Source of the DNA: Anaerolineae bacterium
Lineage (GTDB): Bacteria > Chloroflexota > Anaerolineae > Promineifilales > Promineifilaceae
Direction: 5' to 3'
DNA: 64,000 nucleotides
NCBI GenBank assembly: GCA_020848035.1
Contig: JADLAX010000007.1
Coordinates: 1-64,000, forward strand
In this document: piece after piece, positions 31,504 through 58,993 of the stretch
How positions within the stretch are numbered: position 1 is the stretch's first letter
Layout: every line of letters starts with the position of its first letter
Program-made: the position numbers and the translations under genes
The notes under the pieces: model-generated
The model's database searches: none
Seen by the model: only the letters and a program-made list of their open reading frames with translations
What the model was told of the DNA's origin: nothing

Positions 31504-31556
31504 ATTTCCCCCATTCTCGCGGGCGGCCTTGTTTTGTGTTCCATTGTGTACGCGCG

Positions 31557-31594
31557 TTGACATGGCGTGTACTGTTGTGTACAATGGCACACAA
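31557..31594 (+). promoter_or_regulatory. parA promoter with operator
   Basis: TTGACA (31557-31562) and TACAAT (31580-31585) are 17 bases apart. The inverted repeat TTGTGT-N8-ACACAA (31575-31594) covers the -10 box, and GTGTAC occurs three times nearby. Autoregulation by the partition proteins is likely. Confidence 0.8.
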
Positions 31595-31620
31595 TTACAA
31601 TTTTTCACCCGTTTTTATGA

Positions 31621-31633: not shown

Positions 31634-32509
31634 ATGACAACTGTAATTAGTGTGGAAAACCGAAAGGGTGGGGTAGGCAAGACAACCACGGCCGTCACGT
31701 TAGCAGTTCGCACTGCCCAAAAGATTGCACCGGAAAAGGTGCTGCTTATTTGTGTGGACCCCCAAGGCGATGCGGCTCGCGCGTTGGGGCTGGACCCGGG
31801 CGGACGCTGTTTGTCCCAGCTGCTGCGCGAAGAAGCATCATATGGTGATGTTATCATGTCGGCGGATCTGGCGGCGAACGGCGGGCCATCTCGGCCGAAT
31901 CTGTACTACTTGCCGGCATCGAATAGGCTCTTTGCTGCGCTGACCACGATTCAGGAAGATGTGGTGGCCATGCGGGAGATCGCTAACAAGATGACCCCGC
32001 AGGAACGCAAGCGAAAAGGGTTAGACGAAATTGACGACCTAACTGCCCGGGTACTCAACATCCTGCAACCACTCAAGTCAACTAAAAATGGCCCCAAGTA
32101 CATTTTTATCGACTGCCCACCATCGCTTGGGCCAATGCAAATGGCAATCCACAAATTTGCTGATTACGCGATTGTTCCTGTTGAGCCAGGCGATCAGGAC
32201 TTAGCCATGACTGTTCAGCACACGACGGAAATCGCCGAGGACTTAAAACATGGTGCCAAGATGAAGCTGTTGGCGGTTTTGCCCACCAATGTCCAGCCGC
32301 AACTTAATCTACACACCGCCATGTTAAGCCAGATACGGAAGGTTTATGAGCCGCAGCGGGCATTGGTAACATACATCCCGCGCCGGACGGCCATTCAGCA
32401 GGGGCCGTCTCTGGGTGGGCTAGTGATTTTCGATCATGAGCCAGACAGTGACGCAGCAAAAGCATACGATGTTTTGTCCGAACGGGTGTTGGCCGTAGGA
32501 GGAAGATAA
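31634..32509 (+). CDS. parA: ParA-family partition ATPase
   Basis: 291 residues from the ATG at 31634; upstream in-frame codons lie in the promoter. The deviant Walker A KGGVGKTTT is at residues ~11-19, with IFIDCPPSLGPMQ (Walker B) and VPVEPGDQDLAMTVQ further on. ParA proteins segregate low-copy plasmids with a centromere-binding partner, here the next gene two bases downstream. Its presence supports plasmid-like maintenance of the prophage. Translation starts at a GGAGGTTAGACC element and so is a predicted sRNA target. Confidence 0.9.
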   Translation: MTTVISVENRKGGVGKTTTAVTLAVRTAQKIAPEKVLLICVDPQGDAARALGLDPGGRCLSQLLREEASYGDVIMSADLAANGGPSRPNLYYLPASNRLFAALTTIQEDVVAMREIANKMTPQERKRKGLDEIDDLTARVLNILQPLKSTKNGPKYIFIDCPPSLGPMQMAIHKFADYAIVPVEPGDQDLAMTVQHTTEIAEDLKHGAKMKLLAVLPTNVQPQLNLHTAMLSQIRKVYEPQRALVTYIPRRTAIQQGPSLGGLVIFDHEPDSDAAKAYDVLSERVLAVGGR

Positions 32510-32510
32510 G

Positions 32511-32864
32511 ATGAGCGTAGACTGGGATAGCATTACTCAAAGCGGGGGCAAGAAAGGCGGCAAGGACAAAAAGCCCCAGTTCCGATCAGTTACCGATGGA
32601 TTGACACCCGAAACTGTTCGCAGCGCCACTGGCCGGGAGAAGGCGCAGAAGGGACGTCGCCAGTATCCACTAACAACCCGTCTTCCTATTGAACTGTCTG
32701 GGGAAATACTGGAGAAAATCAAACGCTACGCTGACGAGCTGAACATGGCCCAGAATGATGTGCAGTTGCTCTGCCTTATGCGTGGACTGAATTCGCTGGA
32801 GGATAACCCACCGAAGGTGGAAATCGAGCCAAAGGCGAAGCCAGTTCTGCCGGATCTGTCTTAA
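32511..32864 (+). CDS. Ribbon-helix-helix partition partner
   Basis: 117 residues. A basic N-terminal tail precedes YPLTTRLPIELSGEILEKIK and a second helix, the pattern of ribbon-helix-helix DNA-binding proteins. The place directly after parA suggests the centromere-binding ParB/ParG-type partner. The tail could stimulate ParA. Confidence 0.65.
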   Translation: MSVDWDSITQSGGKKGGKDKKPQFRSVTDGLTPETVRSATGREKAQKGRRQYPLTTRLPIELSGEILEKIKRYADELNMAQNDVQLLCLMRGLNSLEDNPPKVEIEPKAKPVLPDLS

Positions 32865-36311: not shown

Positions 36312-36574
36312 CGTGTGGCAAGGTTGTTCACCTGACGAAGGAGTCGGCAGAAGGGCATGCAGATCGCCTGGAAGCCGAGACCGGGGTGCGCCCAGAAATC
36401 TATCAATGTACGGAGTGCAATAACACGTGGCACGTGGGCCACACGGTCGCACTCAGAAAAAAACTATCAAAAAAAAGCCGCCGCATTCGGCGCGCACACC
36501 GCAATGGCGGCATGAGAAAAAGGAGCATTCATGAACGAAAGAATAGAAATGGTGCCGATTGGCCCAATCCGTAA
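36308..36574 (+). CDS. Small zinc-finger protein
   Basis: 88 residues. YQCTECNNTWHVGH carries CxxC plus His, preceded by a Cys near the start; a basic tail follows. A paralogue is at 61200. It overlaps the ParB-like gene by 44 bases. Nucleic-acid binding is likely. Confidence 0.6.
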   Translation: MTCGKVVHLTKESAEGHADRLEAETGVRPEIYQCTECNNTWHVGHTVALRKKLSKKSRRIRRAHRNGGMRKRSIHERKNRNGADWPNP

Positions 36575-38558
36575 GAACCGGGCGCAGATGCGCACGACTT
36601 ACGATTTGACCAAGCTGGCCGAGCTAACCCTGCAAATGATCCAGCGCGGCTTCGATGGTGATAAGCCACTGCTGATCCGCAAGCTTGACAAGCCAGAAGG
36701 TAGCACAGCGATGACCTACCAGTATGAGAACATCCGTGGCCACCGCCGCCGGATGGCCATGCTGATGGCCCTGGACTGCAAGGGTGGTGGCGAATGGGAG
36801 ATCGAAGCCCTGCGCACCGTCTGGAAGGATTTGGTAGTGCAGTTCGGTGGAGATGTGAGCGAGGAGGTGGTTTCGGCCGAATACGTGGAAGCCGCAGCCG
36901 AATCACTGGCAGAAGCATACCGCGATGAGCTGGTACCGGCCGTCATCTTCCAGGGTGATGAAAAGCAGGCGACGCTGAGCCTCATCTCCGACAACTTCGG
37001 CGACGAAGACCCAGACCCGCTGGGGATTGCCCACGCTCTGCAGGTAGCGGCGCAGCAGGGAATCAATGTGAATGAGGTGGCCAGCCACATGGGGCAGTCG
37101 CGCTACTTCGTTGAAAACCATCTGGCCCTGGGGCAGGTGGATGCCGATATCGCGCAGCGCATTGTGCGCAAAGAGATGAGCATGTCGGTAGCCCCGCTGC
37201 TCATGGCCCAGGCCGAAGAAGTGCGCGAAGCGCTGACCCAGTTCATTCTCATGAATCCAGCGCATCTGATTACCCTGGCCGGTATCAAGAAGCTGACAAA
37301 GCTCTTCGGCAAAGTTTCCTTTACGCTGCCCCTCAGTTTCCCCAACAGCACCCGGCGCAACGTCGCCCGGGCGTTCTGCAATCTGTGGCATGAGGTTTAC
37401 AGCGCCAATCCCGCGCGCGCCTGGTTAGGCGCAGCGGTGGTGCTGTACAACGGCGACCTCATCTACCCGTGGGATGATCCGGAGTATGCGGGGAAGTGGC
37501 TGCGTGCCCTGGGTGTTGAGTTCTCCGGGCACTGGATGGCCGCCGTTGAGCCGTATCTGCGCGAAGTGGCTTGCGCCACGTGCCCAATTGCCCAATTGCC
37601 CAAAGAGATTCTGAAGGTTGATTTGGTAGCGCCGGGGCTGCCCTGCCGCCAGGGGATTGCTACGGAAAAGTGTATGCACGGGTTGGCCGAAAGCGACCCC
37701 TTCCACGTGCGTGTGCCAATGGCATGGTCCAGCTTGAAGCCGGTTAAGCGGGAAGGCAACGTCTACTTTGTGGACAGCTTTGACGATCTGCAAGCCGCCT
37801 GGACGGCGCAGCAGAAAAAAGAGGCAAAAGAGGCCAAGGCGGAAGCCAAAGAGAAAGCGCCTGAGAAGCCGAAAAAGAAGGATGAAGCGAAAGTAACTAC
37901 GGCCGCTGCTGCGCCCACGCCTGCGCCGGAGATACAAAACAAGCCGGGCGATCCGTCGCCGATTGAGCTGATGCGTGCCCGGATTGGCATGTACATGGCC
38001 CACAGCGAGCAGGACGGCCGTAAGCACTTCATGGCTACGCCGTGCAGCACCTGCCAGCACAAATTGGCGGCCAGCCCCACGTCCGATCCGGCGGTGCCGC
38101 ACTGCGCCTGGGCCAGCCACACCCGCAGCGTGACGTTTAAGGCAATTAGCGGGGCAGGGTTTGAGCAGATGGTGGTTTGTCACCAGTATGCGCCAGACCG
38201 GCCGTGGCGGGAGATTGTGCCGGAATATCCCGCAGCGCCAGCGCTGGAGCGCGGTTGGATGGAACGGCAAATCACGATGTGGGTCAATGATCGCAAGAGC
38301 GGGGATTACAAGCCGTTCCAATGGTTGACCGGCCGCCCGATGTCTTCCGGCGAGCGCTGGGACGATTGGTTCCTGGAGCAGTTCAAAACACAGAAAGGGG
38401 AACTGTCCAGCGGGCAAATATTCACGCTTTTCTTGCTGGTCTCCGGCGAGTGGAAGCAGGCCGAACGATGGAACGGTGACAAGAAGTTTGAACTGCCCGT
38501 CGACGCGACCTTTGCCCAGATGGCCATCGTAACGGCCGAAAAATGGGGGAAAGAATAA
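36531..38558 (+). CDS. PRTRC ParB-related protein
   Basis: 675 residues from the ATG at 36531, after AAAGGAG. The N-terminus is ParB/Srx-like (PIRKNRAQMRTTYDLTKLAEL, NIRGHRRRMAMLMAL). A helical HTH region follows (EVASHMGQSRYFVENHLALG). Two Cys clusters follow: CATCP...C...C near residue 345, and CSTCQHK...C...C after a Lys/Ala/Glu linker. These may bind zinc or an iron-sulphur centre. It is the defining gene of PRTRC cassettes found on plasmids and other mobile elements. Its function in them is not established. Confidence 0.75.
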   Translation: MNERIEMVPIGPIRKNRAQMRTTYDLTKLAELTLQMIQRGFDGDKPLLIRKLDKPEGSTAMTYQYENIRGHRRRMAMLMALDCKGGGEWEIEALRTVWKDLVVQFGGDVSEEVVSAEYVEAAAESLAEAYRDELVPAVIFQGDEKQATLSLISDNFGDEDPDPLGIAHALQVAAQQGINVNEVASHMGQSRYFVENHLALGQVDADIAQRIVRKEMSMSVAPLLMAQAEEVREALTQFILMNPAHLITLAGIKKLTKLFGKVSFTLPLSFPNSTRRNVARAFCNLWHEVYSANPARAWLGAAVVLYNGDLIYPWDDPEYAGKWLRALGVEFSGHWMAAVEPYLREVACATCPIAQLPKEILKVDLVAPGLPCRQGIATEKCMHGLAESDPFHVRVPMAWSSLKPVKREGNVYFVDSFDDLQAAWTAQQKKEAKEAKAEAKEKAPEKPKKKDEAKVTTAAAAPTPAPEIQNKPGDPSPIELMRARIGMYMAHSEQDGRKHFMATPCSTCQHKLAASPTSDPAVPHCAWASHTRSVTFKAISGAGFEQMVVCHQYAPDRPWREIVPEYPAAPALERGWMERQITMWVNDRKSGDYKPFQWLTGRPMSSGERWDDWFLEQFKTQKGELSSGQIFTLFLLVSGEWKQAERWNGDKKFELPVDATFAQMAIVTAEKWGKE

Positions 38559-38875
38559 TGATTGCAATACGGGACGCTTTGGCAGACAAGAAAGTGGTGG
38601 TAACGGCCGTTATTCGGCAGGGTGATGAAAACACCCCCCGCGACAGCCGCGATGTAGTGGTCACAGTGGGAATCCCCGACGAGCGCGTGGTGATTAAGGC
38701 AGGCAAGTTTGGCCAGCTGCACCATCTGATTGATGTGGCCTGGAGCGAGTATGGTGAGATTGTGACGGCAAACCAAACGGCCGTTGCGACTACGGAGCCA
38801 GAAGAGATTGGCTCGGCCGCGCCGGAAGCCACGGTCAGCCAATCCAGCAGTTATTACAGCGACGACGATTTCTAG
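38558..38875 (+). CDS. Possible PRTRC protein E-like
   Basis: 105 residues, coupled by TAATG to the ParB-like gene. Beta strands (KVVVTAVIRQGD, RDVVVTVGIPD) then LHHLIDVAWSEYGEI and a Ser/Asp-rich end. The strand order and place before the ubiquitin-like gene suggest a diverged protein E. Low certainty. Confidence 0.4.
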   Translation: MIAIRDALADKKVVVTAVIRQGDENTPRDSRDVVVTVGIPDERVVIKAGKFGQLHHLIDVAWSEYGEIVTANQTAVATTEPEEIGSAAPEATVSQSSSYYSDDDF

Positions 38876-38885
38876 GAGGAAGATG

Positions 38886-39380
38886 ATGAGCCAAGATGAC
38901 AAAGAGTATGTCACCATTGCCGAGGCAATAGCCGACGCGAAGAAGCCCAGAGTATTTGTTTATGAAGGGCATGAGTATGAAGACCCCGGCCAGCACTTGA
39001 GCAACGAGGATGTGCGAGACATTCTAGCGCGCACCTTCGGCGCGCTGGCGGGCGGCATTATTGAGACGACTGAGCAGGATAGCCGGATTGTGGTGCACCT
39101 GAAGCCGCGGCCTGAGCGCAAGGCAGGAACGGCCGTATCTCGCCAAAAAACGTGCGGGGCCTGTGGTGGACCAGTGTGCGCCATTTGCGGTGGCTGCTTT
39201 GAGGAAGGTGAGTGCGGCTGCTACGAGCAGATGATCGACGACGCAATGTTGGCGGAGTGGGCAAGGGCTAATCGCGATGGGCTGGAAGAGTTCGCCCGGT
39301 TGTGCCGTCAGGACCTGGTCAACGATGTGCTGGTGCTGTTCGGCCGGGTGTTCCAATTGCCCGCAGCCATGATTGAATAG
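38886..39380 (+). CDS. Ubiquitin-like PRTRC protein C with a Cys-rich tail
   Basis: 164 residues from the ATG at 38886 (another ATG at 38883), after AGGAGG. Residues ~22-80 fit PRTRC protein C / Prok_Ub: RVFVYEGHEYEDPGQHLSNE, then DVRDILARTFGALAGG and IVVHLKPRPERKAG, compared with the family pattern F-x-Y-x-G-x2-L-x-D-P ... E-x-V-x2-x-Y-A. Instead of ending there, it continues into a cluster of seven Cys (C90-x2-C-x4-C-x2-C-x2-C-x5-C-x-C112), probably a zinc-binding treble clef. It would be the modifier, or a modifier fused to a zinc module, of the neighbouring E1/E2/JAB set. Confidence 0.65.
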   Translation: MSQDDKEYVTIAEAIADAKKPRVFVYEGHEYEDPGQHLSNEDVRDILARTFGALAGGIIETTEQDSRIVVHLKPRPERKAGTAVSRQKTCGACGGPVCAICGGCFEEGECGCYEQMIDDAMLAEWARANRDGLEEFARLCRQDLVNDVLVLFGRVFQLPAAMIE

Positions 39381-39414
39381 CTGAGAGGGTGGGGGTGTTT
39401 TTTTAGCCCCCACT

Positions 39415-39430
39415 GTTTCAAAAGGTTTCA
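39415..39430 (+). promoter_or_regulatory. GTTTCA tandem box
   Basis: GTTTCA at 39415 and 39425, 10 bp apart, ending 6 bases before the ATG at 39437. A GTGGGGG/CCCCCAC hairpin with a T-rich loop lies just upstream. Confidence 0.7.
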
Positions 39431-39436
39431 GCGACC

Positions 39437-39697
39437 ATGCAAGCAATCATAGATTACTTACTAGAAATTCTGAACGACGACGATGAAGTGCCATACATTG
39501 ATGTGGATGACGTTTTCAACTTTCTGAACGACTTGATTGGCAACCAGCTGGATGCAGCACATATTGTAGACAGGGTAGGGCTTTATGAGGTGGAGCTAAA
39601 CAGCGTAGCGTGGGAAGGACGCGCTGCCAGCGAACTGCTAACCAGGCTGCTTATTACGCCAGCTGTACCGCTGAAAGGGTATGTGGTGGGGCTATGA
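39437..39697 (+). CDS. Small acidic protein in the PRTRC cassette
   Basis: 86 residues, helical and acidic (LLEILNDDDEVPYIDVDDVF). Overlaps the next gene (ATGA). Unknown. Confidence 0.5.
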   Translation: MQAIIDYLLEILNDDDEVPYIDVDDVFNFLNDLIGNQLDAAHIVDRVGLYEVELNSVAWEGRAASELLTRLLITPAVPLKGYVVGL

Positions 39698-40590
39698 AAA
39701 CCAAAAAACTTGACCCACGAGACCTGGCCCGCTGTGCCCTCACCAGCCTACGGCTAGCACGAATCCATCAGAATTTCTTCAGCGATGCGCTGCCTGATCT
39801 GAAATGGAAGCCCGTCGATGAAAAAAGCACCGCAAAGGCGGCTTCCAAGATACTTGGACACGTGGGCACTCTGTTTCCTCTTTGGGAAATGTGGGATGAC
39901 GATTACGCAATGGCCGAGGATTTTTCACAGTATATCCCTATCACCGTATTTGGCGTCGACGATGAATATATTTCAGACATGATGGGTAGCCATATATGGC
40001 ATGACCTGGAGGCATATCTATTTGCCTTTGATGGCGGGTTTGGGGGAGGGGAAGAAGAAGAGGCCGGCGAAGAACTCGCTTGCCAGTTTGATATTCGCCA
40101 GCCAGCGCCCATCTGGAAGATTTTCCTCAAGCTGGAAATGATGCTCATCGAAGGTGATGAGCGGCTCCAGCAGTACAGGGTGCAATGGCGCAACATGGCG
40201 CGACGCTTCCGCTATTTGACGGCCAATACGGAGCACCAGTTTCTCGATCGAGACATCGAAACGCAGAGTTACTCTGGTCAGATACCCTGGGAAAAGGAAT
40301 GGATTGATGCCCTGACAGAGCAATGGGCAGAAGCGGAGCCATACCTGGATTCCACATGGGCATTTGTAAATTGGGTGATAGAAAGCCCAGGTAACTTCGA
40401 CCTGGCAATTGCCGTGGTGCGCCTGGTGTGTGACGAAGTGGCTGCTGACGAGCAGATGGCCAATGTCAGCTTGAATGAAGTACACACTGAAGATCACAAA
40501 GACCTCCTGACAATTCAGCAACGTTTGAACGCAATGGAATGGGACGAAAATGACAAACCAGAAAACGAAAAAGAAACCGAAGCTAGTTAG
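39694..40590 (+). CDS. PRTRC-cassette protein of unknown function
   Basis: 298 residues from the ATG at 39694. Helical, acidic, with a Gly/Glu-rich stretch (GGFGGGEEEEAGEE) near the middle and many Trp. By position it could take the place of PRTRC protein F, but I see no diagnostic motif. It overlaps the E2-like gene by 41 bases. Confidence 0.5.
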   Translation: MKTKKLDPRDLARCALTSLRLARIHQNFFSDALPDLKWKPVDEKSTAKAASKILGHVGTLFPLWEMWDDDYAMAEDFSQYIPITVFGVDDEYISDMMGSHIWHDLEAYLFAFDGGFGGGEEEEAGEELACQFDIRQPAPIWKIFLKLEMMLIEGDERLQQYRVQWRNMARRFRYLTANTEHQFLDRDIETQSYSGQIPWEKEWIDALTEQWAEAEPYLDSTWAFVNWVIESPGNFDLAIAVVRLVCDEVAADEQMANVSLNEVHTEDHKDLLTIQQRLNAMEWDENDKPENEKETEAS

Positions 40591-41209
40591 AGGAAAATGG
40601 GCGGCGCGCATCTCTCTCTACCGGGATCACGCATATGTGGAGATGGATCACCCGGAAGGCTTGCTCGAAAAGCAGGTCGCGCTTGATAGCCTGGGTCCGG
40701 TGTTCGCCAATGTCCCCGTGGGGACGGGGCTGCTGCCGCGCAACATTCTGTTTTATGAAAAGCAGAACGGGGAACAGCGCATCGGCATCTACATTGAACC
40801 TGATCGATACACCTTCCGCACGCCAGATCGGGAATACAAGCTGCCTATGCCGGGCTTTGTGTTTGTGGGCCAGGCGCAGCGTTACAGCCTATATGCCGTG
40901 GCTGAGACGGATTGGCCGGGGCAGCGCACCAGGCTGTACTGGCCGCCCATGACCAACATTCAGGATGGTGGGTCTATGTGCACCGGAACGGTGAAGGTGC
41001 CCAGCTGCGCACCGGACACCATTTGGGACGCCTGGGCTGCGCTGATGGGCGCGTATTTCACGCCTCATGCCATTGAGCATCGCAGCAAAAGCCACAAATC
41101 AGTCATTGAGTTCTGGGAGTTCCTGGAAGCGGTGGACGCTTTTCCCTATGACGAGCTAGTGCCGATGGACAAGCCGCGCACGCTGGAAGAGCTGCTCAGA
41201 GGAGTCTAA
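40550..41209 (+). CDS. E2-like PRTRC protein B
   Basis: 219 residues. LLPRNILFYEK, GIYIEPDRYTFR and the GGSMCTGTVKVP motif with Cys144 match PRTRC protein B / prokaryotic E2 family D, in which this Cys is the candidate thioester site. FTPHAIEH is the conserved later motif. It lies next to E1-like, JAB and ubiquitin-like genes. The conjugating activity is a prediction of the family, not shown here. Confidence 0.7.
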   Translation: MTNQKTKKKPKLVRGKWAARISLYRDHAYVEMDHPEGLLEKQVALDSLGPVFANVPVGTGLLPRNILFYEKQNGEQRIGIYIEPDRYTFRTPDREYKLPMPGFVFVGQAQRYSLYAVAETDWPGQRTRLYWPPMTNIQDGGSMCTGTVKVPSCAPDTIWDAWAALMGAYFTPHAIEHRSKSHKSVIEFWEFLEAVDAFPYDELVPMDKPRTLEELLRGV

Positions 41210-41211
41210 CA

Positions 41212-41814
41212 ATGCTCAGTATTCACAACTTACTCCAACACTACATCTACGATGGCACCCTGCCAGAACCAAACCCGCCAGGGTATCAGTACATCATGGC
41301 GGGCAATGGCATCTTCATCCAGGCAGATAGCCCACTGCGACGCGTGGTTGTGCAAATCGCCCGAAAGCAAATTAAAGGGCTGCCAGCGCTTCAGCAGCAG
41401 ATCAGGTTGAAGCACCCCCGGCTAAACGGCCGTACGCTGCCGGTGATCATCGAACACGCCAGACAGCGCCTGGACATCGAGGTGGTTTACCACGTGACAG
41501 CTGACATGCGGATTCGCGCCATCGCCACGGGCACCAAGGCGTCTGTTGAGTTTGAGAATGTGCCTGATGAAGGGGTTATCCTGGAGGCTCATTCGCATAA
41601 CACAATGCCTGCAGGATTTTCCTCAGTAGACAACAAGTATGAACAGCGGTTTCGATTCTATATGGTGGTGGGCAATCTGCACGACCGTCCGCAGGTGGCC
41701 TTCCGGCTGGGGGTGTATGGGTATCACATCCCGCTACCGCTATCGGTTTTGTTTGACTTTAGCAACGTAAACATTGAATGGGACGAGGTGGGTCATGCTC
41801 AAGATAGATATTGA
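41212..41814 (+). CDS. JAB/JAMM PRTRC protein A
   Basis: 200 residues from the ATG at 41212. Glu125, then H127-S-H129, seven residues, S137-x2-D140: the full JAMM metalloprotease motif (HxH-x7-S-x2-D). JAB proteases of this class remove or mature ubiquitin-like tags. It overlaps the E1-like gene by 20 bases. Confidence 0.8.
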   Translation: MLSIHNLLQHYIYDGTLPEPNPPGYQYIMAGNGIFIQADSPLRRVVVQIARKQIKGLPALQQQIRLKHPRLNGRTLPVIIEHARQRLDIEVVYHVTADMRIRAIATGTKASVEFENVPDEGVILEAHSHNTMPAGFSSVDNKYEQRFRFYMVVGNLHDRPQVAFRLGVYGYHIPLPLSVLFDFSNVNIEWDEVGHAQDRY

Positions 41815-42721
41815 AAAACGATATCGGGTGATGGTTCCCGATTTTCAATTTGTGCAGCTTGTGGTTGCCGGGGTGGGGGGAACTGGCTCAGCCGTAGCCA
41901 TCGATCTGGCACGCCTGGCATATCACTGCCAGGAGAATGGACTACCGGTGATGATGCAGCTGGTTGACGGCGACAAGGTGGAACCAAAAAATGTCGGACG
42001 CCAGCAGTTCTCGATGTACGAGGTCGGTGAAAACAAGGCGACGTCCATGGCGCGGCGGCTGAACCTCTGGCTTGGGCTGGATATAACGGGCACCCCCAAG
42101 ATGCTAACAGAAAAAACGAAACTCATCTTCAACGACGGCCGTATGAAGCCGCTGCGAATCATTGTGGGTGCAGTAGACAACCATAAGGCGCGCCGGGCCA
42201 TTGCCAAACATGCGCAGAAATCTGGCGCATGGTGGGTGGATGCGGGCAACGGCGAATTCAAGGGCCAGGTTCTACTCGGCAATTATCCGCAGGGTGGGAT
42301 TGAGGTAGCCGAGGACCTGGCCCTGATGAACGGGTTACCCGCTCCAGACAAACAGATGCCGGAGCTGCTTGAAGAAGAGGACAAACCAACGCTGGAGTTC
42401 GAGGATTGTGCCTTACGCATCTTACGCGATGAGCAGAGCATCAACATCAATCGGTTGATGGCCACGTATGCGGCGCAGGTGGTTTACGACCTGATCATCA
42501 AGCGGGAGTTGGATTACATGGCGATTCATACCAGCTTCCGGCCGCCCAGCACAACGGCCGTGCCTGTCACCCGCCGCACGCTTGAGCGGTATGGCGAAGT
42601 GAAGGAAGTGCCCGCAAAGTACGACCCCAAGGACATGGACCCAGAGGAGTTTGACGACGAAGAGGATTTTGAACAGTGGTTGCTGGACATGGAAATGGAA
42701 GGCGAGGAGGAGCTGCCGTAA
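41795..42721 (+). CDS. E1/ThiF-like PRTRC protein
   Basis: 308 residues from the ATG at 41795, with GAGGTGGG upstream. The Rossmann motif AGVGGTGSA is at residues ~25-33. LVDGDKVEPKNVGRQQF has the adenylating Asp and the N-x2-RQ motif of ThiF/E1 enzymes. A Cys in FEDCALRIL is a candidate active site. It should adenylate the C-terminus of a ubiquitin-like partner. The end is very acidic. TAATG couples the next gene. Confidence 0.8.
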   Translation: MLKIDIEKRYRVMVPDFQFVQLVVAGVGGTGSAVAIDLARLAYHCQENGLPVMMQLVDGDKVEPKNVGRQQFSMYEVGENKATSMARRLNLWLGLDITGTPKMLTEKTKLIFNDGRMKPLRIIVGAVDNHKARRAIAKHAQKSGAWWVDAGNGEFKGQVLLGNYPQGGIEVAEDLALMNGLPAPDKQMPELLEEEDKPTLEFEDCALRILRDEQSININRLMATYAAQVVYDLIIKRELDYMAIHTSFRPPSTTAVPVTRRTLERYGEVKEVPAKYDPKDMDPEEFDDEEDFEQWLLDMEMEGEEELP

Positions 42722-43733: not shown

Positions 43734-44672
43734 ATGCATATAGAGAAAACCCGTTTGTGTGGTGAATCGGCAATGGCCAATTATGATTGGCCGTTACTGC
43801 GGCGATTGTGGGAAGAGGCGACCAGTAAGCCGCGCCCCAGCTGGTACTTGCCGGAGCTGGTGACCATGTGCTTTGTGGACCAGTGCGACGAGGAAGTGTC
43901 GGCCAAGTTGGCCGCAGCGCTGGGGATGGCTCAATTGGCAATCAAGTTAATCGACGACTTGCTTGATGCTGAGCCAGGTGGGGTACAGGAACAGGCCAGC
44001 GCTGGGGAGGTGGCCAACATTGCCTGTGCCTTTCAGGCTTTTTCTTCCGACCTGGCGCTTACGTCGTTTCATCCAAATACACCTTTTGGTAAGCCTGCTG
44101 CAGCTATCATTGCCCGGCTACTGCATGAGACGGCCTTTGGCCAAAAGCTAGACTCATCTGAGGCGTTTACAGAGGAAGAATATTGGGTGACCGTGCAGTG
44201 GAAATCTACGCCATTCTACAGGCACGCTTTTGCCTTGGGCGCGCTGCTGGCGCGGCATCATGGGGCCACTGTCGATGTGCAGTTGATTCGGTCACTGGGG
44301 ACGATTTTTGGCGAGATGGTGCAGGTGATTGACGACATGGTGGATGTAATGGCTACACCGGCGACCGGCGATTGGCATCGCAGCAACAATCTACTCATTC
44401 TGTTTGCAGAATTGACCGATGAGCACGGCCGTTTCGCAGAGCTAAAAACGGCAGTTCAGGGCGGTGCCGACCCCGAAACAGCCCAGCAGTATTTAATCGA
44501 CTGTGGGGCAGTGACTTACTGTGAGCACGTTGTGAAGGGGAAGTATGAAAGGGCGATGGAGCTTCTGGCTATTTTGAAGATTGAAGATAGTCCGTTGCGG
44601 AAATTATTTGACAGCCACTTGAGCGCCGTCTTAGTACCAACCAAAGGGCCAGACAGCATTCGCCTCGTTTAA
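43734..44672 (+). CDS. Polyprenyl synthase, ComQ-like
   Basis: 312 residues from the ATG at 43734 after GGGAGAGG. The all-helical isoprenoid synthase fold has both aspartate-rich motifs: IDDLLDAEPG (D74, D75, D78) and VIDDMVDVM (D200, D201, D204). In ComQXPA systems such a protein prenylates a Trp of the ComX peptide. Here a candidate peptide gene overlaps its 3' end on the other strand, and a kinase and regulator follow. A housekeeping prenyl-chain role is less likely in a phage. Confidence 0.75.
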   Translation: MHIEKTRLCGESAMANYDWPLLRRLWEEATSKPRPSWYLPELVTMCFVDQCDEEVSAKLAAALGMAQLAIKLIDDLLDAEPGGVQEQASAGEVANIACAFQAFSSDLALTSFHPNTPFGKPAAAIIARLLHETAFGQKLDSSEAFTEEEYWVTVQWKSTPFYRHAFALGALLARHHGATVDVQLIRSLGTIFGEMVQVIDDMVDVMATPATGDWHRSNNLLILFAELTDEHGRFAELKTAVQGGADPETAQQYLIDCGAVTYCEHVVKGKYERAMELLAILKIEDSPLRKLFDSHLSAVLVPTKGPDSIRLV

Positions 44673-47125: not shown

Positions 47126-47857
47126 ATGGCCCACATTTTGGTGGTTGATGATGAGGACGATATTTGCCGCCTTATCCGGGATGCCTTTTATAGAAAAGGG
47201 CATGACGTGGATGTGGCGCACAATGGGCGGCAGGCTCTGGAATTGCTGCGACAATCCTTTTATGATGCGATGATACTTGACCTGGTGATGCCCGGCATGA
47301 CCGGCGAGCAGGTTTTGGATCATCGTGAGGAGTATGCGGAAACGGCCGTTATCATTTTGACGGCGCACAGTTCGACCAGCTCAGCAGTGAAGGCGCTGCG
47401 CACACAGGTGTCTGATTACTTGGAGAAGCCGGTTGAGCTGGCTCGGCTGGTGGAGATGGTGGAATCTTATATTGTTTGGCACAGCTACAAGGATTTCAAA
47501 GTCAATATTCAGTCACAGCGCGCCTTCTATAAGGGCGAGCTCATCGAAGGGATGACGGCAGGGCTGTTTTACATTTTTTCGATTTTTGTGAAATATCCCG
47601 GCCGGTACTTTACGCATCAGGAGCTGGTGACGCAGATGGTGAAAGAGTACCCGGATTATTTTGAAAGCGACACCAGGGCTTACATAGCCAAAAAGGTTAA
47701 TGCCGTTGGGGGAATTGACCGAATAACCGCCACACGCTACCTACGCCCGCAGATATCGCGATTGCGGCGGAAGGTGCTGGACCCGTTGGTGGGGCGCGAG
47801 GTGATTACGGATCAGAAGGGGGTGGGGTTTACGTGGGGCCGTTTTGATCTTGTGTAA
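47126..47857 (+). CDS. OmpR-type response regulator
   Basis: 243 residues, 11 bases after the kinase gene, with GAGAGG upstream. The receiver has DDEDD near residues 8-12, phospho-Asp52 (MILDLVMPG), Thr/Ser in ILTAHSS and Lys in LEKPVE. The C-terminal ~100 residues form a winged helix (FTHQELVTQMVKE, RYLRPQISRLRRKVLDP, ITDQKGVGFTW). OmpR-family regulators bind tandem direct half-sites 10-11 bp apart, so it is the best candidate for the GTTKCA arrays. Confidence 0.85.
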   Translation: MAHILVVDDEDDICRLIRDAFYRKGHDVDVAHNGRQALELLRQSFYDAMILDLVMPGMTGEQVLDHREEYAETAVIILTAHSSTSSAVKALRTQVSDYLEKPVELARLVEMVESYIVWHSYKDFKVNIQSQRAFYKGELIEGMTAGLFYIFSIFVKYPGRYFTHQELVTQMVKEYPDYFESDTRAYIAKKVNAVGGIDRITATRYLRPQISRLRRKVLDPLVGREVITDQKGVGFTWGRFDLV

Positions 47858-47906
47858 AAATTGAGGATTTGTTATAGTGGAGGCCTGCTGGTTGCAGTAG
47901 GTTTCA
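47850..47906 (+). promoter_or_regulatory. Promoter and tandem box before the replication gene
   Basis: TTGTGT (47850) and TATAGT (47873), 17 bases apart, then GTTGCA (47891) and GTTTCA (47901), 10 bp apart. CTATACA follows at 47911. Confidence 0.65.
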
Positions 47907-47921
47907 AAATCTATACAAGGC

Positions 47922-48019
47922 AAAAAAAAGCCCGGTGCTTTGGCGAGCATACCGGGCGGGCGCCACAGAGTGGCAGTGGATTCAGCCGCATTATATCATA
48001 TTCCCCTGTGACGCCACAA
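47922..48019 (-). ncRNA. Candidate minus-strand antisense RNA
   Basis: On the minus strand, TTGTGG (48019-48014) and TATAAT (47995-47990) are 18 bases apart, predicting a start near 47983. The RNA ends at a strong terminator: GCCCGGT..GCT paired with AGCACCGGGC, then T8 (47929-47922). It is about 62 nt and antisense to the leader of the replication gene, the arrangement of plasmid copy-control RNAs. Confidence 0.6.
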
Positions 48020-48093
48020 GCCTATATTTTTTATGGATCACCTGTTCTAGGTGATGTGGTGAAACATACGTGGGGATGGTAGAATTGGGCAAC

Positions 48094-48152
48094 TTTTCCC
48101 GACTGGAAACGGGAAAAACAAAACGACCAAATGTCCTGGAAAACATTTGGTC
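48094..48152 (+). promoter_or_regulatory. Two perfect inverted repeats in the rep leader
   Basis: TTTTCCCG/CGGGAAAA (48094-48117) and GACCAAATGT/ACATTTGGTC (48125-48152). TAGAAT at 48080 may be a -10 box. They could be operators or leader hairpins. Confidence 0.6.
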
Positions 48153-48261
48153 GCCGCAAACTTTCAGTGTTAGCCGCATTACGCTTCTGGAAAAGCGCCC
48201 CTTTAGTGGGGAGGGGGGATTTGTATCTCCCAGCGGCTTTGTTGCATAGAGGATAGCAAAA

Positions 48262-49473
48262 ATGGCAGCAGCGGTCAAGAGTTCGGCAGAAACAACCTGG
48301 AGAGCGACCCTCAGCGAGCTTGAGTTGCAGATGACGAAGGCCACATTTAACACGTGGCTGAAAGATGCGGTGTTTTTGCGGGTCGAAAAGGGCGTCTACG
48401 TGATTGGCGTACGGAACAGCCATGCAGTTGACTGGCTCACAAATCGGCTGGGGGACACGATCCGGCGCACATTGGCAGCGATTGCTGATACGGCCGTTGA
48501 TGTGCGTTTTGTGGTGGTGGACGTAGTTGAGAGTGAGCTGGCCCAGGACGACGAGGGTGAAGATGGGGAACGGCCGTTTTACTCGCGGCCTGACATCAAC
48601 GCCCAATGGTATGCTGTGCTAAAGGCGTATGCGGAAGCCCAAGACAGTTTGCAGCCATCATCCTGCCTGAAGCTGCTGAATAAATTGGATTTTTTGATTG
48701 ACGGTACAAACCTCAAGATTTTTTCTTCTGACCCCAAAGCTATTGAAAATTTGAATAGAATCGCCAACTGGCTGGAGGCCCTGCAAGCGCAGTTTCGTGT
48801 GGCGGGCCTGCTGGTGGATGTGTCATTGCACCAGGAGCCGAGCAGTAATGGCCGTGCCAATGGGCAAGCTAGCCAGGCTAGCCAGAAGCAGCAAACCAAG
48901 CGCAAGGGCAGCGATGACGGGGATGGACCGGTGCAGTATAGGAACATTCGGCCCCCAACGGATCCGCTGGGGTCTTTTGTGAAAACCAGCCATTATGCCA
49001 TTCGGTTCTGGCGGCCGTACCTGGGGCCAGATGTGTTTGATTTGCTGCAAATCATTAGCAGTTATGCTTATGAATTTGAGGTGTTACGCAAGGATGGGCC
49101 AACCCTGACAGCCCTCATTAACAAGATGGGGCGGGGGAAGGACACCAGGAAGCTCACCGGCAGAACAGGCAGCGGCAAGGGCGATAGCTACCGCGAGGGG
49201 TCTTATGGTTGGCTGAACGAGCTGCGGGATCATCGGCTGTGCGACTATTGGCAAGATGGGTACGGCCGTTGGGCTAAGAATTATTTCGACCACTTGACCA
49301 AAGTGAGCGACCTCCCACTACTAACCCCCAAACAGGTAGCACGATTATCCCCTGAAGACCAGGCAGAACACGAGGAATGGCTCCGGCTGCATACGGCCGT
49401 TGATTACGACGAATGGAGCCAGGACGGGCGTGAATCACGCATTCCAGAATTGCCTTTGCGAGAACACCCCTAA
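48262..49473 (+). CDS. Replication initiator with a DnaA_N domain
   Basis: 403 residues with GAGGAT upstream. Residues ~10-90 fit DnaA domain I (TWRATLSELELQMTKATFNT, VRNSHAVDWLTNRLGDTI). A flexible linker leads to a C-terminal half with many aromatic residues (SHYAIRFWRPYLGPDVFDLL) and an RTGSGKGDSYREGSYGW loop. There is no AAA+ domain, so it is not DnaA; the N-terminal domain could recruit host DnaB or DnaA partners. Iterons begin 23 bases after the stop codon. I take it as the plasmid-type initiator. Confidence 0.7.
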   Translation: MAAAVKSSAETTWRATLSELELQMTKATFNTWLKDAVFLRVEKGVYVIGVRNSHAVDWLTNRLGDTIRRTLAAIADTAVDVRFVVVDVVESELAQDDEGEDGERPFYSRPDINAQWYAVLKAYAEAQDSLQPSSCLKLLNKLDFLIDGTNLKIFSSDPKAIENLNRIANWLEALQAQFRVAGLLVDVSLHQEPSSNGRANGQASQASQKQQTKRKGSDDGDGPVQYRNIRPPTDPLGSFVKTSHYAIRFWRPYLGPDVFDLLQIISSYAYEFEVLRKDGPTLTALINKMGRGKDTRKLTGRTGSGKGDSYREGSYGWLNELRDHRLCDYWQDGYGRWAKNYFDHLTKVSDLPLLTPKQVARLSPEDQAEHEEWLRLHTAVDYDEWSQDGRESRIPELPLREHP

Positions 49474-49495
49474 TCACTATACGATAATCTATCCC

Positions 49496-49644
49496 GGCGG
49501 AGCGCCAGGATAGAAGTGTTCTATGGTGGCGGAGCGCCGGGATAGAGGTTGATTTCTATGGTGGCGGAGCGCCAGGATAGAAATTCTAAGTAGGCGGAGC
49601 GCCAGGATAGAGGGGGGTTTAAGTAGGCGGAACGCCAGGATATA
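49496..49644 (+). repeat. Five iterons (origin region)
   Basis: GGCGGAGCGCCAGGATAGA at 49496, 49528 (one change), 49563, 49593 and 49626 (three changes). Start-to-start distances are 32, 35, 30 and 33 bp, close to three helical turns. Each copy contains GGCG-GAG-CGCC. Confidence 0.85.
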
Positions 49645-49730
49645 CCTCTGGTATAAAGAACTAAAGACCATAGGGAGAAAAAAACAGATTTATATTTTTC
49701 TCTTTTTATTAAAAGAGATGTAAGTAAAGA
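49645..49730 (+). other. AT-rich stretch beside the iterons
   Basis: Nearly all A and T with AAAAAAACAGATTTATATTT and a TTTTTATTAAAAGAG segment. It is the likely strand-opening region of the origin. No gene is seen in 49473-49766. Confidence 0.6.
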
Positions 49731-53068: not shown

Positions 53069-54208
53069 ATGAAATTTAGTACGAATCGCGAATCCCTGAT
53101 TGATGTTTTGAAGAAGTTACGGCCGTTTGTGTCCACGCGCAGCCTGCTGCCTGTTTTGCAGAATGTGCGGGTGGAAGCATTTGAAGACGGCCGGGTGAAT
53201 CTGACGGTCACCAACCTGGAAGTGATAGGGGCCGCAATGGCTGGTGCAACGGTGGACGCACCTGGGGCCACCACGCTGCCTTACACGCTCCTGGTGAGCG
53301 TGCTGGGCGAAATGATGGGGGAGCAGGTGTCGTTTTCGCCTGACGAGGGTGAGCGCACCCTGATCCAGTCTGATTTGTCTGAAAGCTCTCTGGCGGGCCT
53401 TCCCGCAGCGGAGTTCCCCAAGACGGATTTCGTGATTACCGACGCTTCATTTTCCTTCCCTGTGACGGCGGCATGGCTGAAGCAGCGCTTCAACCAGGTT
53501 CTGTTTAGTGCGGCCGGTGACGATACGCGACCGGTTCTGTGTACGGTGCTGTTCCGGGTGGTTGGTGGCAAGTTAACAATGGCGGCTACCGATGGATTCC
53601 GCCTTACGCTGATTGATGCCCCAGAAGCCTTTGGTGAAACGGCCGTTCCCAACTTTGAAGTGATCTTCCCCGCAGCGCAAATGGCGGGAATCTTGCAGAT
53701 GCTCGAAGGCGATGTAACGGTAACCGTTAACTGCAAGCGGGTGAAGTTTGAGACGGCGACGGCCACGGCCGTGCTGCAAGTGCCTGACTATGACTACCCT
53801 GATTTCAGCCCCATCATTCCAACGCGTGTGCTGACCATGTTTACTTTGGAGCGTGCGCGGGCCATCAGTGCGGCGCGGTTGGCGATGGTGATTGCTCATC
53901 ACAACGACGGTCCCGAGGCGATCACGCTGGAGCATGAGCCGGTGGATGGGGAGGCGGGGTGGTTGGCCATGTCTTCGGTGATTGCGTCGGTGGGGGCAAA
54001 CGAGGCCCGCGCCACGCTCATTTCGGCTGAGGGCAACCAGTTTTCAACGATGGGGGTGAATGGGGGGTATCTGCTGGATGCGCTAACTCATGCGCCTGAT
54101 GGTGATATCCAAATCCGTACCACCAATCCGGTAGAGCCAATTGTTATTCGGTCGGTTAATGATGCGACGTGGCAGTGCATCATTATGCCGCTCCATTTGA
54201 AACGTTAG
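53069..54208 (+). CDS. dnaN: DNA polymerase III beta subunit (sliding clamp)
   Basis: 379 residues, the normal length. Start MKFSTNRESLIDVLKKLRPF; middle LCTVLFRVVGGKLTMAATDG; end WQCIIMPLHLKR, all clamp hallmarks. It should encircle DNA and raise the processivity of a polymerase encoded by the host or outside the window. GGAGG precedes the ATG, and a very strong terminator follows. Confidence 0.9.
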   Translation: MKFSTNRESLIDVLKKLRPFVSTRSLLPVLQNVRVEAFEDGRVNLTVTNLEVIGAAMAGATVDAPGATTLPYTLLVSVLGEMMGEQVSFSPDEGERTLIQSDLSESSLAGLPAAEFPKTDFVITDASFSFPVTAAWLKQRFNQVLFSAAGDDTRPVLCTVLFRVVGGKLTMAATDGFRLTLIDAPEAFGETAVPNFEVIFPAAQMAGILQMLEGDVTVTVNCKRVKFETATATAVLQVPDYDYPDFSPIIPTRVLTMFTLERARAISAARLAMVIAHHNDGPEAITLEHEPVDGEAGWLAMSSVIASVGANEARATLISAEGNQFSTMGVNGGYLLDALTHAPDGDIQIRTTNPVEPIVIRSVNDATWQCIIMPLHLKR

Positions 54209-57106: not shown

Positions 57107-57927
57107 ACGCTCACTCTTACGCTGCCCGTAAGGATGCTATGCCGCGCGATTTGCGGATCAGTAACCCAGATAGCGGCAAGCTTTACGATGTGGAGCCGGA
57201 AGCTTTTGAAAGGTTCAAGAGGATTTTAGCGGAAAAGGAAACCGCCTCGGCGCGGACAGTTAAAGGAGCAAACATGAAAAGCGAAGCAGGTCAAGTTGAT
57301 TTATCAATTTATCCAGATGAGGTTGTCGCGGCAGCTAAGGTTGAGGCAGCCAAGCCGGACAAGCGCGCTCGTCGATACGGCGATGTGTTCACACCAGAAG
57401 TGGTCGCAGTCTGGCAGGCGTGGAAGGATACGGACGGCCGTTCTACGGCCTGGATTGGCAAAAACAACGGGCTGCTAGAAGTGCCGGAAACCGTGGTGCA
57501 TACCTATATGTTTAAGCACAAGCAGGAGGCTGCTGCATTGCGCAGCCAGAAGAAGAGCCAGGAGACGGCCGTGCCTAGCGTTGCGCCGAAGGCTGAGCCG
57601 GTTGCGGTGGTGGAAGAAACGGCCGTTGCAGATGAGGTTGAGGAAGCCGCTGCGGTTGAGCCGCCGATGGTGGAGGATACGGCCGTTGCGGATGTTCTGC
57701 CGCTGGATGACGCGGCGGGGGACGATGCAGCGATGCCTGTTCAGTCAGTTGAACCCTTTGTGCCACGACGTCCAGATAATTTACCGGATTTTCTGGACCG
57801 GGAGTATCGGCCGGTGCCCAGGGTGGGGGATACGCTGGGCAATCTCATCCGCCTGCTGAATGATGAGCGGGTAACGATTGAGGGTGAGGTTGATTTGCGG
57901 TTGAACATTAAGTTTGGGGGGAAATAA
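57103..57927 (+). CDS. Acidic, Ala/Val-rich hypothetical protein
   Basis: 274 residues. A folded N-terminal half (FTPEVVAVWQAWKDTDGRS) is followed by a long acidic linker. ETAVADE and DTAVADV segments in it come from ACGGCCGT copies read as T-A-V. Unknown. Confidence 0.5.
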   Translation: MNAHSYAARKDAMPRDLRISNPDSGKLYDVEPEAFERFKRILAEKETASARTVKGANMKSEAGQVDLSIYPDEVVAAAKVEAAKPDKRARRYGDVFTPEVVAVWQAWKDTDGRSTAWIGKNNGLLEVPETVVHTYMFKHKQEAAALRSQKKSQETAVPSVAPKAEPVAVVEETAVADEVEEAAAVEPPMVEDTAVADVLPLDDAAGDDAAMPVQSVEPFVPRRPDNLPDFLDREYRPVPRVGDTLGNLIRLLNDERVTIEGEVDLRLNIKFGGK

Positions 57928-57928
57928 G

Positions 57929-58993
57929 GTGCAGCAGACGATACGGCCGTTCACCGACGAGCAGATAAAAGCCTTCGTTCCCCGCATCGCCATGCGGGAT
58001 CTGCGGGAGATTGACGAGTGGTGCCTGCACAGCGGGCACGGCGGTTTTGACCACATGATCCGAACGGCAGCCAGATGGGGCATCGACCGCGTGGAAGCCA
58101 CCCTGATGTCTTACGGCGCTGGAACCCAGACCAACGTGCTGTTGGCCCTGGCGGCTTACGCTCACAAGTTCGAGCCAGGCCAGCCCGGCCACCTTCCGGT
58201 GGACTTCTGCATGTTCGCCAACGTCGGCGACGATGGGACCCCGTGCGAGTATCCCGAAACCATTGATTACATGGAACGCATTCTGTACGCCAGCCCGATT
58301 GCGATGGTGAAAGTCTCGCCAAGCCTCTGGAACACAAGCCTGCCAAACGATGGCGGGTTGTTCGACATCTTCCTGGAGCGGGAAACTATGCCTTTTCGGA
58401 TGTTTCGCGGCTGTACAGACAATTTCAAGATTCAGCCACAACTGAAATCTCTGGACTGGCTGCACGCTCACGTCATGAGGGAGCATGGCATCTATCTACA
58501 GTTTCGGCAGGTCATTGGCTATTCAGTGGGCGAGGAGGATCGTGTCAAGAAGTTTGACACCGGACGGCCGTACATCCGGCCCTGGTTCCCGCTGATCGAA
58601 TGGGGATGGGGCCGCGAGGAGACCGTCGCCCGCTTTGCCTACCATCTGCCCGACGTGGCCCAGGCCGTGGGCCTGCCTGAACGCTCAGGATGCTGGTTTT
58701 GTCCTTTTCAGCGCCGGGGCACCATTGACCCGGTAACACTGGAGCCTACGCCGCGCAGCTGGACCGCCTTGTACCAGCAGCACCCAGACCTGTTTGCTGC
58801 CGCTGTCGAGATGGAAGATCGGCAGAATGCTAGACGGGTGTCGGAAGGAAAAGCGCCTGCCTATTTGTATGGTAATAAGCCGCTTGAGTATTGGGTAGGC
58901 GACAAGTTTATGACAGTCCAAATGGGCTTTGATTTTGACGAAGGTGAGCGCCATGGTGATGACACTTGCTCATCTTGGGGATGCTTTCGATGA
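57929..58993 (+). CDS. PAPS-reductase-like PP-loop protein
   Basis: 354 residues from a GTG at 57929 after GGGGGGAAATAAG. The PP-loop SYGAGTQTNVLL (residues ~60-71) is followed by FRGCTDNFKIQP and RSGCWFCPFQRRG. The family includes PAPS reductases and DNA-modification enzymes such as DndC. No other modification genes are visible, so the substrate is open. Confidence 0.75.
   Translation: MQQTIRPFTDEQIKAFVPRIAMRDLREIDEWCLHSGHGGFDHMIRTAARWGIDRVEATLMSYGAGTQTNVLLALAAYAHKFEPGQPGHLPVDFCMFANVGDDGTPCEYPETIDYMERILYASPIAMVKVSPSLWNTSLPNDGGLFDIFLERETMPFRMFRGCTDNFKIQPQLKSLDWLHAHVMREHGIYLQFRQVIGYSVGEEDRVKKFDTGRPYIRPWFPLIEWGWGREETVARFAYHLPDVAQAVGLPERSGCWFCPFQRRGTIDPVTLEPTPRSWTALYQQHPDLFAAAVEMEDRQNARRVSEGKAPAYLYGNKPLEYWVGDKFMTVQMGFDFDEGERHGDDTCSSWGCFR

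Follow-up and report, generated by a model that had tools for sequence, protein, structure and literature searches.

The DNA described here very probably contains the origin from which a circular phage-plasmid replicates in its plasmid mode; the host belongs to the Anaerolineae (Chloroflexota). The window (the whole stretch of DNA that was analyzed) comprises the first 64,000 bases of a 101,576-bp contig (C7) from a 7.65-Mb MAG. Within it, an initiator gene, an array of five iterons and an AT-rich stretch are contiguous to a degree far beyond chance, which counts for an origin of the plasmid mode, and a plasmid lifestyle of the element is likely. In the proposed mechanism, the winged-helix C-terminal domain of the initiator would bind the five semi-palindromic iterons, placed about three helical turns apart, and the bound copies would strain and open the adjacent AT-rich DNA. 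Domain I, whose presumed source is DnaA of the host family, would bring in replication proteins of the host, and among these most likely the DnaB helicase. Copies of the element would then be segregated by ParA and a ParB. Possible further functions are dimer resolution, by a Xer-like recombinase, and a check on the synthesis of the initiator, by an antisense RNA in the leader.

The initiator and its origin

The initiator gene (48262..49473, plus strand) encodes a protein of 403 aa with three parts: (i) DnaA domain I; (ii) a middle region; and (iii) a winged-helix C-terminal domain. Domain I (residues 8-87; 48283..48522, plus strand) is 63% identical to that of the DnaA of the same MAG. Pfam DnaA_N matches residues 10-71 (E 3.3e-9, above the gathering score), and the Pfam scan gave no other domain in the protein; neither Rep_3 nor RepA_N (PF06970) was matched, and the repeats lie 3' of the stop codon, not inside the gene. 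The NCBIfam DnaA profile (TIGR00362) covers residues 13-93 only, at 31 bits against a cut-off of 344, so that the initiator is without both the AAA+ motor and domain IV. This agrees with the preliminary description, which had read the gene as a DnaA_N initiator devoid of the motor. A second DnaA_N at residues 105-190, plausible by eye, was rejected as no profile supported it.

The C-terminal domain (48958..49452, plus strand), which is presumed to bind the iterons, was recognized through a profile match and an AlphaFold model, and according to profile comparison it is common to plasmid-type initiators. The model, built from 11 sequences (mean pLDDT 69, pTM 0.67), shows a helical fold that includes a helix-turn-helix and two strands, and a winged helix is presumed from this model of moderate confidence. 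Its closest PDB alignment is to the Geobacillus primosomal DnaB, a helicase co-loader (Z 8.5, 3.3 A, 120 residues), and a Rep-DNA complex aligns with a Z of 6.6; both scores are middling. A model of the whole initiator from its single sequence reached a pLDDT of 36. Searches of viral, phage and plasmid collections gave no near homologue of the full-length protein, and searches of species genomes gave none of the part after domain I. The helicase-contact residues of E. coli domain I, which we take to be Glu21 and Phe46, presumably correspond to Thr and His in the initiator. Domain I binds the DnaB helicase in E. coli, and such binding has not been seen in B. subtilis (PMC5448010).

The repeats begin 15 bases past the initiator stop codon and are followed by the AT-rich DNA. 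Five copies of a 23-nt repeat occupy 49490-49642 with start-to-start distances of 32, 35, 30, and 33, so the five iterons at steps of about 32 bp that had been described are indeed there. As 27-bp units on the plus strand, they lie at 49488..49514, 49520..49546, 49555..49581, 49585..49611, and 49618..49644, the fifth being the most diverged. The GGCG-GAG-CGCC symmetry attributed to each iteron is present and reaches further out, albeit to an uneven degree: iteron 1 (TCTATCCCGGCGGAGCGCCAGGATAGA) is the best palindrome and equals its reverse complement at 22 of 27 positions, whereas copies 2-5 score only 18, 20, 16, and 14. With at most 3 mismatches, the consensus TGGCGGAGCGCCAGGATAGA occurs five times in the window, always in the array, and never in 100 dinucleotide-shuffled versions of the window. 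An 11-mer present at least three times within 400 bp is found in the whole contig only at the iterons, and clusters of this kind arose in none of 20 simulated genomes. The remainder of the 7.65-Mb MAG holds just three isolated matches with two mismatches, and a search of IMG/VR with the iteron sequence returned three single matches.

The AT-rich stretch reported after the iterons is confirmed at approximately 49644..49725, where it is 73% AT with a 60-bp peak of 78% AT, among the AT-richest places of the contig, and it is the presumed unwinding element. Direct repeats at helical spacing, AT-rich DNA and an adjacent initiator gene are thus all present, in the layout of an iteron-type origin. 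This layout, together with that of the homologues, suggests that the initiator binds the repeats. No consensus DnaA box was found at the origin (6 in the window vs. 3.9 expected). The GC-skew analysis that had been recommended as a check proved uninformative, as the skew stays positive around the entire circle and does not change sign at the iterons. Binding to operator repeats is common among Rep proteins and regulators, and the iterons could be pictured as the operators of an autorepressed regulator, with no origin at all; two of the relatives described below (L031 and L032) do have operator-like repeats also 5' of the gene. We regard this as very improbable, since the iterons lie 3' of the gene, away from the promoter and leading into AT-rich DNA, the fused domain belongs to replication, and the layout recurs at homologues located by parA.

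The initiator mRNA is predicted to have a structured leader of 404 nt (47858..48261, plus strand; folding z-score -5.8 vs. shuffles); an Rfam search found nothing credible. Two intrinsic terminators in it face the minus strand: one has a perfect 15-bp stem (48122..48155) and is a candidate for the end of an antisense RNA, and the other has a T8 tail (47930..47957). Strong minus-strand terminators number nine in the contig and five in C7:1-72000, and two of these five fall in the leader. The neighbouring genes are on the plus strand, and these terminators are therefore most simply read as belonging to an antisense RNA that keeps the initiator in check. A weak promoter-like site with an extended -10 (48250..48278, minus strand; 9/12 matches) could serve such an RNA; sites of this kind are no more numerous than expected by chance. 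The terminators suggest antisense copy control of the initiator, with a promoter no better than chance, and antisense copy control is employed by RepA_N plasmids (PMC5703833).

A circular element with phage and partition genes

The first and last 127 bases of C7 match exactly, which indicates a closed circle of 101,449 bp. Terminal overlap can also come from circularly permuted or concatemeric lytic DNA. The phage genes of the contig encode a terminase large subunit (gpA-type), a tape measure protein, a minor tail protein, peptidoglycan-degrading domains, and an antirepressor. Such a terminase and such structural genes would also suit a virulent phage, whose concatemeric DNA was assembled as a circle and for which the partition and PRTRC genes are cargo. 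That reading is quite improbable, given that partition genes, antirepressor and recombinase indicate a temperate life, and that an octamer at host-like density and a domain I of the host family (see below) suggest long residence in the host lineage. A phage-plasmid, on the other hand, is marked by a plasmid-type replication initiator and a partition system (PMC11652158); both are present in C7, and so are the phage packaging and structural genes.

The ParA partition ATPase (31634..32509, plus strand) contains the KGGVGKTT motif and matches AAA_31 (E 1e-21), while its match to NCBIfam ParA_partition is below the cut-off. The small gene directly 3' of parA (32511..32864, plus strand) has no Pfam match and by its position is a possible partition partner. 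Immediately 5' of parA, at 31536-31597 of the window, are TGTGTAC repeats, a possible partition site or operator. The contig encodes two ParB-type proteins, namely a ParB at C7:79793-80806 and the ParB-like member of a PRTRC cassette. This cassette (36531..42721, plus strand; NCBIfam matches) comprises ParB-like, E2-like, JAB-like and ThiF-like proteins; PRTRC_ThiF is matched above the cut-off, PRTRC_parB, _B, and _A significantly yet below it, and the ThiF, B, A, and ParB proteins are adjacent to each other. A second PRTRC cassette in the same MAG, on contig C72 (G000:C72, locus L085), is 32-37% identical to that of C7.

A tyrosine recombinase is encoded outside the window (C7:84245-85168), and its presence makes integration possible. 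The origin could accordingly be the lytic origin of an integrating temperate phage, like lambda O and its iterons, with the recombinase a true integrase and the lysogens integrated. Lambdoid origins use iterons too, an antirepressor gene is present, and the recombinase matches phage-integrase profiles and adjoins the AT-richest stretch of the contig, where an att site could lie. We nevertheless consider this unlikely. ParA and ParB would be superfluous for an integrated prophage, and homologous initiators adjoin parA/parB. The recombinase is of Xer-like size, its best NCBIfam match being XerA-like (archaeal-type Xer), and an 89% identical copy resides on C72, the other contig bearing a PRTRC cassette, which has no match to the terminase of the element; the similarity of C7 and C72 stops just past the recombinase gene. 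The search for an att site at the recombinase gave short, low-scoring matches only, none of them at a tRNA, and no tRNA, att site or integrated copy of the element was found, while the contig closes on itself. In this one MAG, the element shows a 127-bp terminal overlap, and no integrated copy was seen. Extrachromosomal lysogeny, as put forward in the preliminary description, is supported though not proven by the closure of the contig and by the presence of ParA, its small neighbour, and ParB; the integrase and att sites elsewhere that were to speak against it amount to an integrase-family gene with no att site found, and relatives do have iterons.

With respect to replication proteins, the element encodes a homologue of the DNA polymerase III beta clamp with three beta-clamp domains (53069..54208, plus strand), and it also has genes for a DarB-like protein and for helicases. 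The C7 proteins scanned, which were a part of the total, included no DnaB-type helicase, primase or replicative DNA polymerase. The DarB-like methylase-helicase (1698 aa; C7:67552-72648, L009:3552-8648) has a strong PHROG match. C7:72746-77387 (L009:8746-13387, minus strand) is a low-GC cargo with genes for a CBASS-type nucleotidyltransferase (SMODS + AGS_C) and for an endonuclease effector of the SAVED type, a pair flanked by two unassigned genes; judged by its domains, this cargo is anti-phage defence on a phage-plasmid. The window also encodes a phosphoadenosine phosphosulfate reductase-like protein (57914-58993; its SspD match is weak) and, within the phage genome, a polyprenyl-synthetase-like protein (43734-44672). 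A related phage contig of another genus (G016:C62) retains the terminase, ParA and clamp, and has neither a match to the window initiator nor an iteron array. The replication module thus looks exchangeable.

Relatives in the Anaerolineae and the source of domain I

The homologue search with the C-terminal domain, which the preliminary description had called for, gave matches in 21 of 396 Anaerolineae genomes. Most of the matching proteins also contain domain I, either before or after the shared C-terminal domain. Five of them (L031-L035), whose homologues in the databases come from Anaerolineales and Ardenticatenales MAGs, combine domain I with two copies of the shared domain. Their genes are followed by short repeats 3' of the stop codon and then, except in L032, by an AT-rich run. 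Of these repeat sets, that of L034 passes a shuffle test; the sets of L031, L032, L033, and L035 fail it and are visible by eye. The gene of L035 is next to parA and parB, and that of L034 is next to parB and the likely start of parA. Distant homologues that have iterons after the gene and adjoin partition genes in this manner bear out the earlier assignment of the window to a plasmid-type origin.

A wider repeat scan covered 39 proteins in which domain I or the shared domain is present, with 12 simulations each. At 16 of these, the window's included, a 12-mer was present in at least three copies, beyond all 12 simulations. Where domain I is N-terminal, the repeats are found behind the gene or within its final codons (the window, L034, L048, L116, L124, L126, and L127), and where it is C-terminal they lie mostly in the linker (L036, L037, L040, L041, L043, and L044). 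The repeats of L121 are also of the linker type, on a contig that ends before any domain I; those of L122 follow the gene, and those of L087 are around its start. A rule by which a C-terminal domain I entails linker iterons is broken by L122 and by Bacillus plasmids, so we state only that the iterons are in or just after the gene. Repeat clusters were found neither in the DnaA control (L038) nor in six proteins that consist of domain I and little else. These six (L039, L045, L046, L047, L049, and L050) are short and without iterons, the domain-I tree groups L045, L046, L047, and L039 together, and they are possible decoys or regulators of DnaA partners.

The domain-I tree included 44 DnaA and 34 other domain-I sequences over about 80 columns, with many long branches, and its single placements are unsure for that reason. 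Domain I of the window nests inside the DnaA clade of its own family (support 99/98 in this tree, 98/96 in another). Nesting in the DnaA of the own family is also seen in families f11, f51, and f44, and probably in f46. For 18 of the 34 other sequences the best-scoring DnaA is from the same family (shuffled mean 7.0, maximum 13), and well-supported branches require at least 6 changes between "DnaA" and "other." The direction of transfer, from DnaA to the element, is assumed. The palindromic octamer ACGGCCGT, which is reminiscent of the cyanobacterial HIP1 repeat, has 152 copies in C7 vs. 1.7 expected (approximately 90-fold) and is enriched in host DNA too; its density is 1.5 per kb in C7 and 1.8 per kb in the surroundings of the host dnaA, and C62 has 0. 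An octamer at host density and a domain I of the host family tie the element to this host lineage. On balance, we lean toward the view that domain I has been captured time and again, from DnaA of the respective host family, by plasmids and phages across the Anaerolineae and fused to winged-helix domains in either order, with private iterons.

Comparison with known replicons

The closest known counterparts are the initiators of Bacillota plasmids and of the Brevibacillus phages Jenst and SecTim467 (PHROG 26369), which like the window initiator join a winged-helix-type domain to DnaA domain I. With both in one protein and no AAA+ motor, the window initiator fits this kind. These genes adjoin parA (pSX01705-1, pCR3) or parM (SecTim467), and some have repeats 3' of the gene, as here. 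In contrast, their domain I is C-terminal, whereas that of the window initiator is N-terminal and comes from a Chloroflexota DnaA. The viral and plasmid collections that hold such proteins gave no direct sequence match to the window initiator; the single strong viral match of the C-terminal domain is the SecTim467 initiator (E 3.5e-4), with its C-terminal domain I and adjacent parM. Since circular Bacillus plasmids have DnaA_N genes next to parA, initiators of this kind are already in databases. What appears to be new, as far as sequences tell, is that Anaerolineae proteins join domain I and winged-helix domains in both possible orders, that their iterons lie within the gene or directly behind it, and that their domain I is recurrently nested in the DnaA of the host's own family.

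The RepA_N plasmids (pSK41, pPR9) are alike in having a modular winged-helix initiator, cognate repeats at the gene, a host-specific end domain, and antisense control (PMC5703833). Unlike them, the window initiator has no RepA_N match and its repeats come after the gene; its end domain is DnaA domain I, whereas theirs is a DnaD-like domain that binds primase. In pPR9, an HTH of pfam13730 was swapped in (PMC5703833); L037 contains a domain of this family too, as does L041 with a match below the gathering score. With iteron plasmids and P1-type phage-plasmids the element shares the iterons by an AT-rich stretch, the partition genes, the tyrosine recombinase and the phage genes, but the window initiator has no Rep_3-type match and its origin no consensus DnaA box. 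The RepA/ori of the PLE satellite of Vibrio has similar semi-palindromic iterons of approximately 30 bp, and the DNA-binding domain of RepA is swapped together with the origin while the other end is conserved (PMC8263062). However, PLE RepA has a DNA-binding domain of the RepA_N type and is without DnaA domain I. Chromosomal DnaA has domain I in common with the window initiator, which is without the AAA+ and DnaA-box-binding domains. RepN of pLS32/pBS32 was considered as a studied relative; a published description of it makes no mention of DnaA domain I, and no kinship is claimed.

A limited literature search found no paper on phage-plasmids in Chloroflexota. The origin described here is a candidate self-replicating module for the Anaerolineae, a class with few genetic tools, and amounts to a natural experiment on the role of DnaA domain I in a protein that lacks the AAA+ motor. 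Domain I may furthermore be of use as a marker by which plasmids and phages of uncultured bacteria can be assigned to hosts. If its repeated capture from host-family DnaA is true, domain I would act in replication as a "host socket" that can be exchanged, and its capture would go hand in hand with host range.
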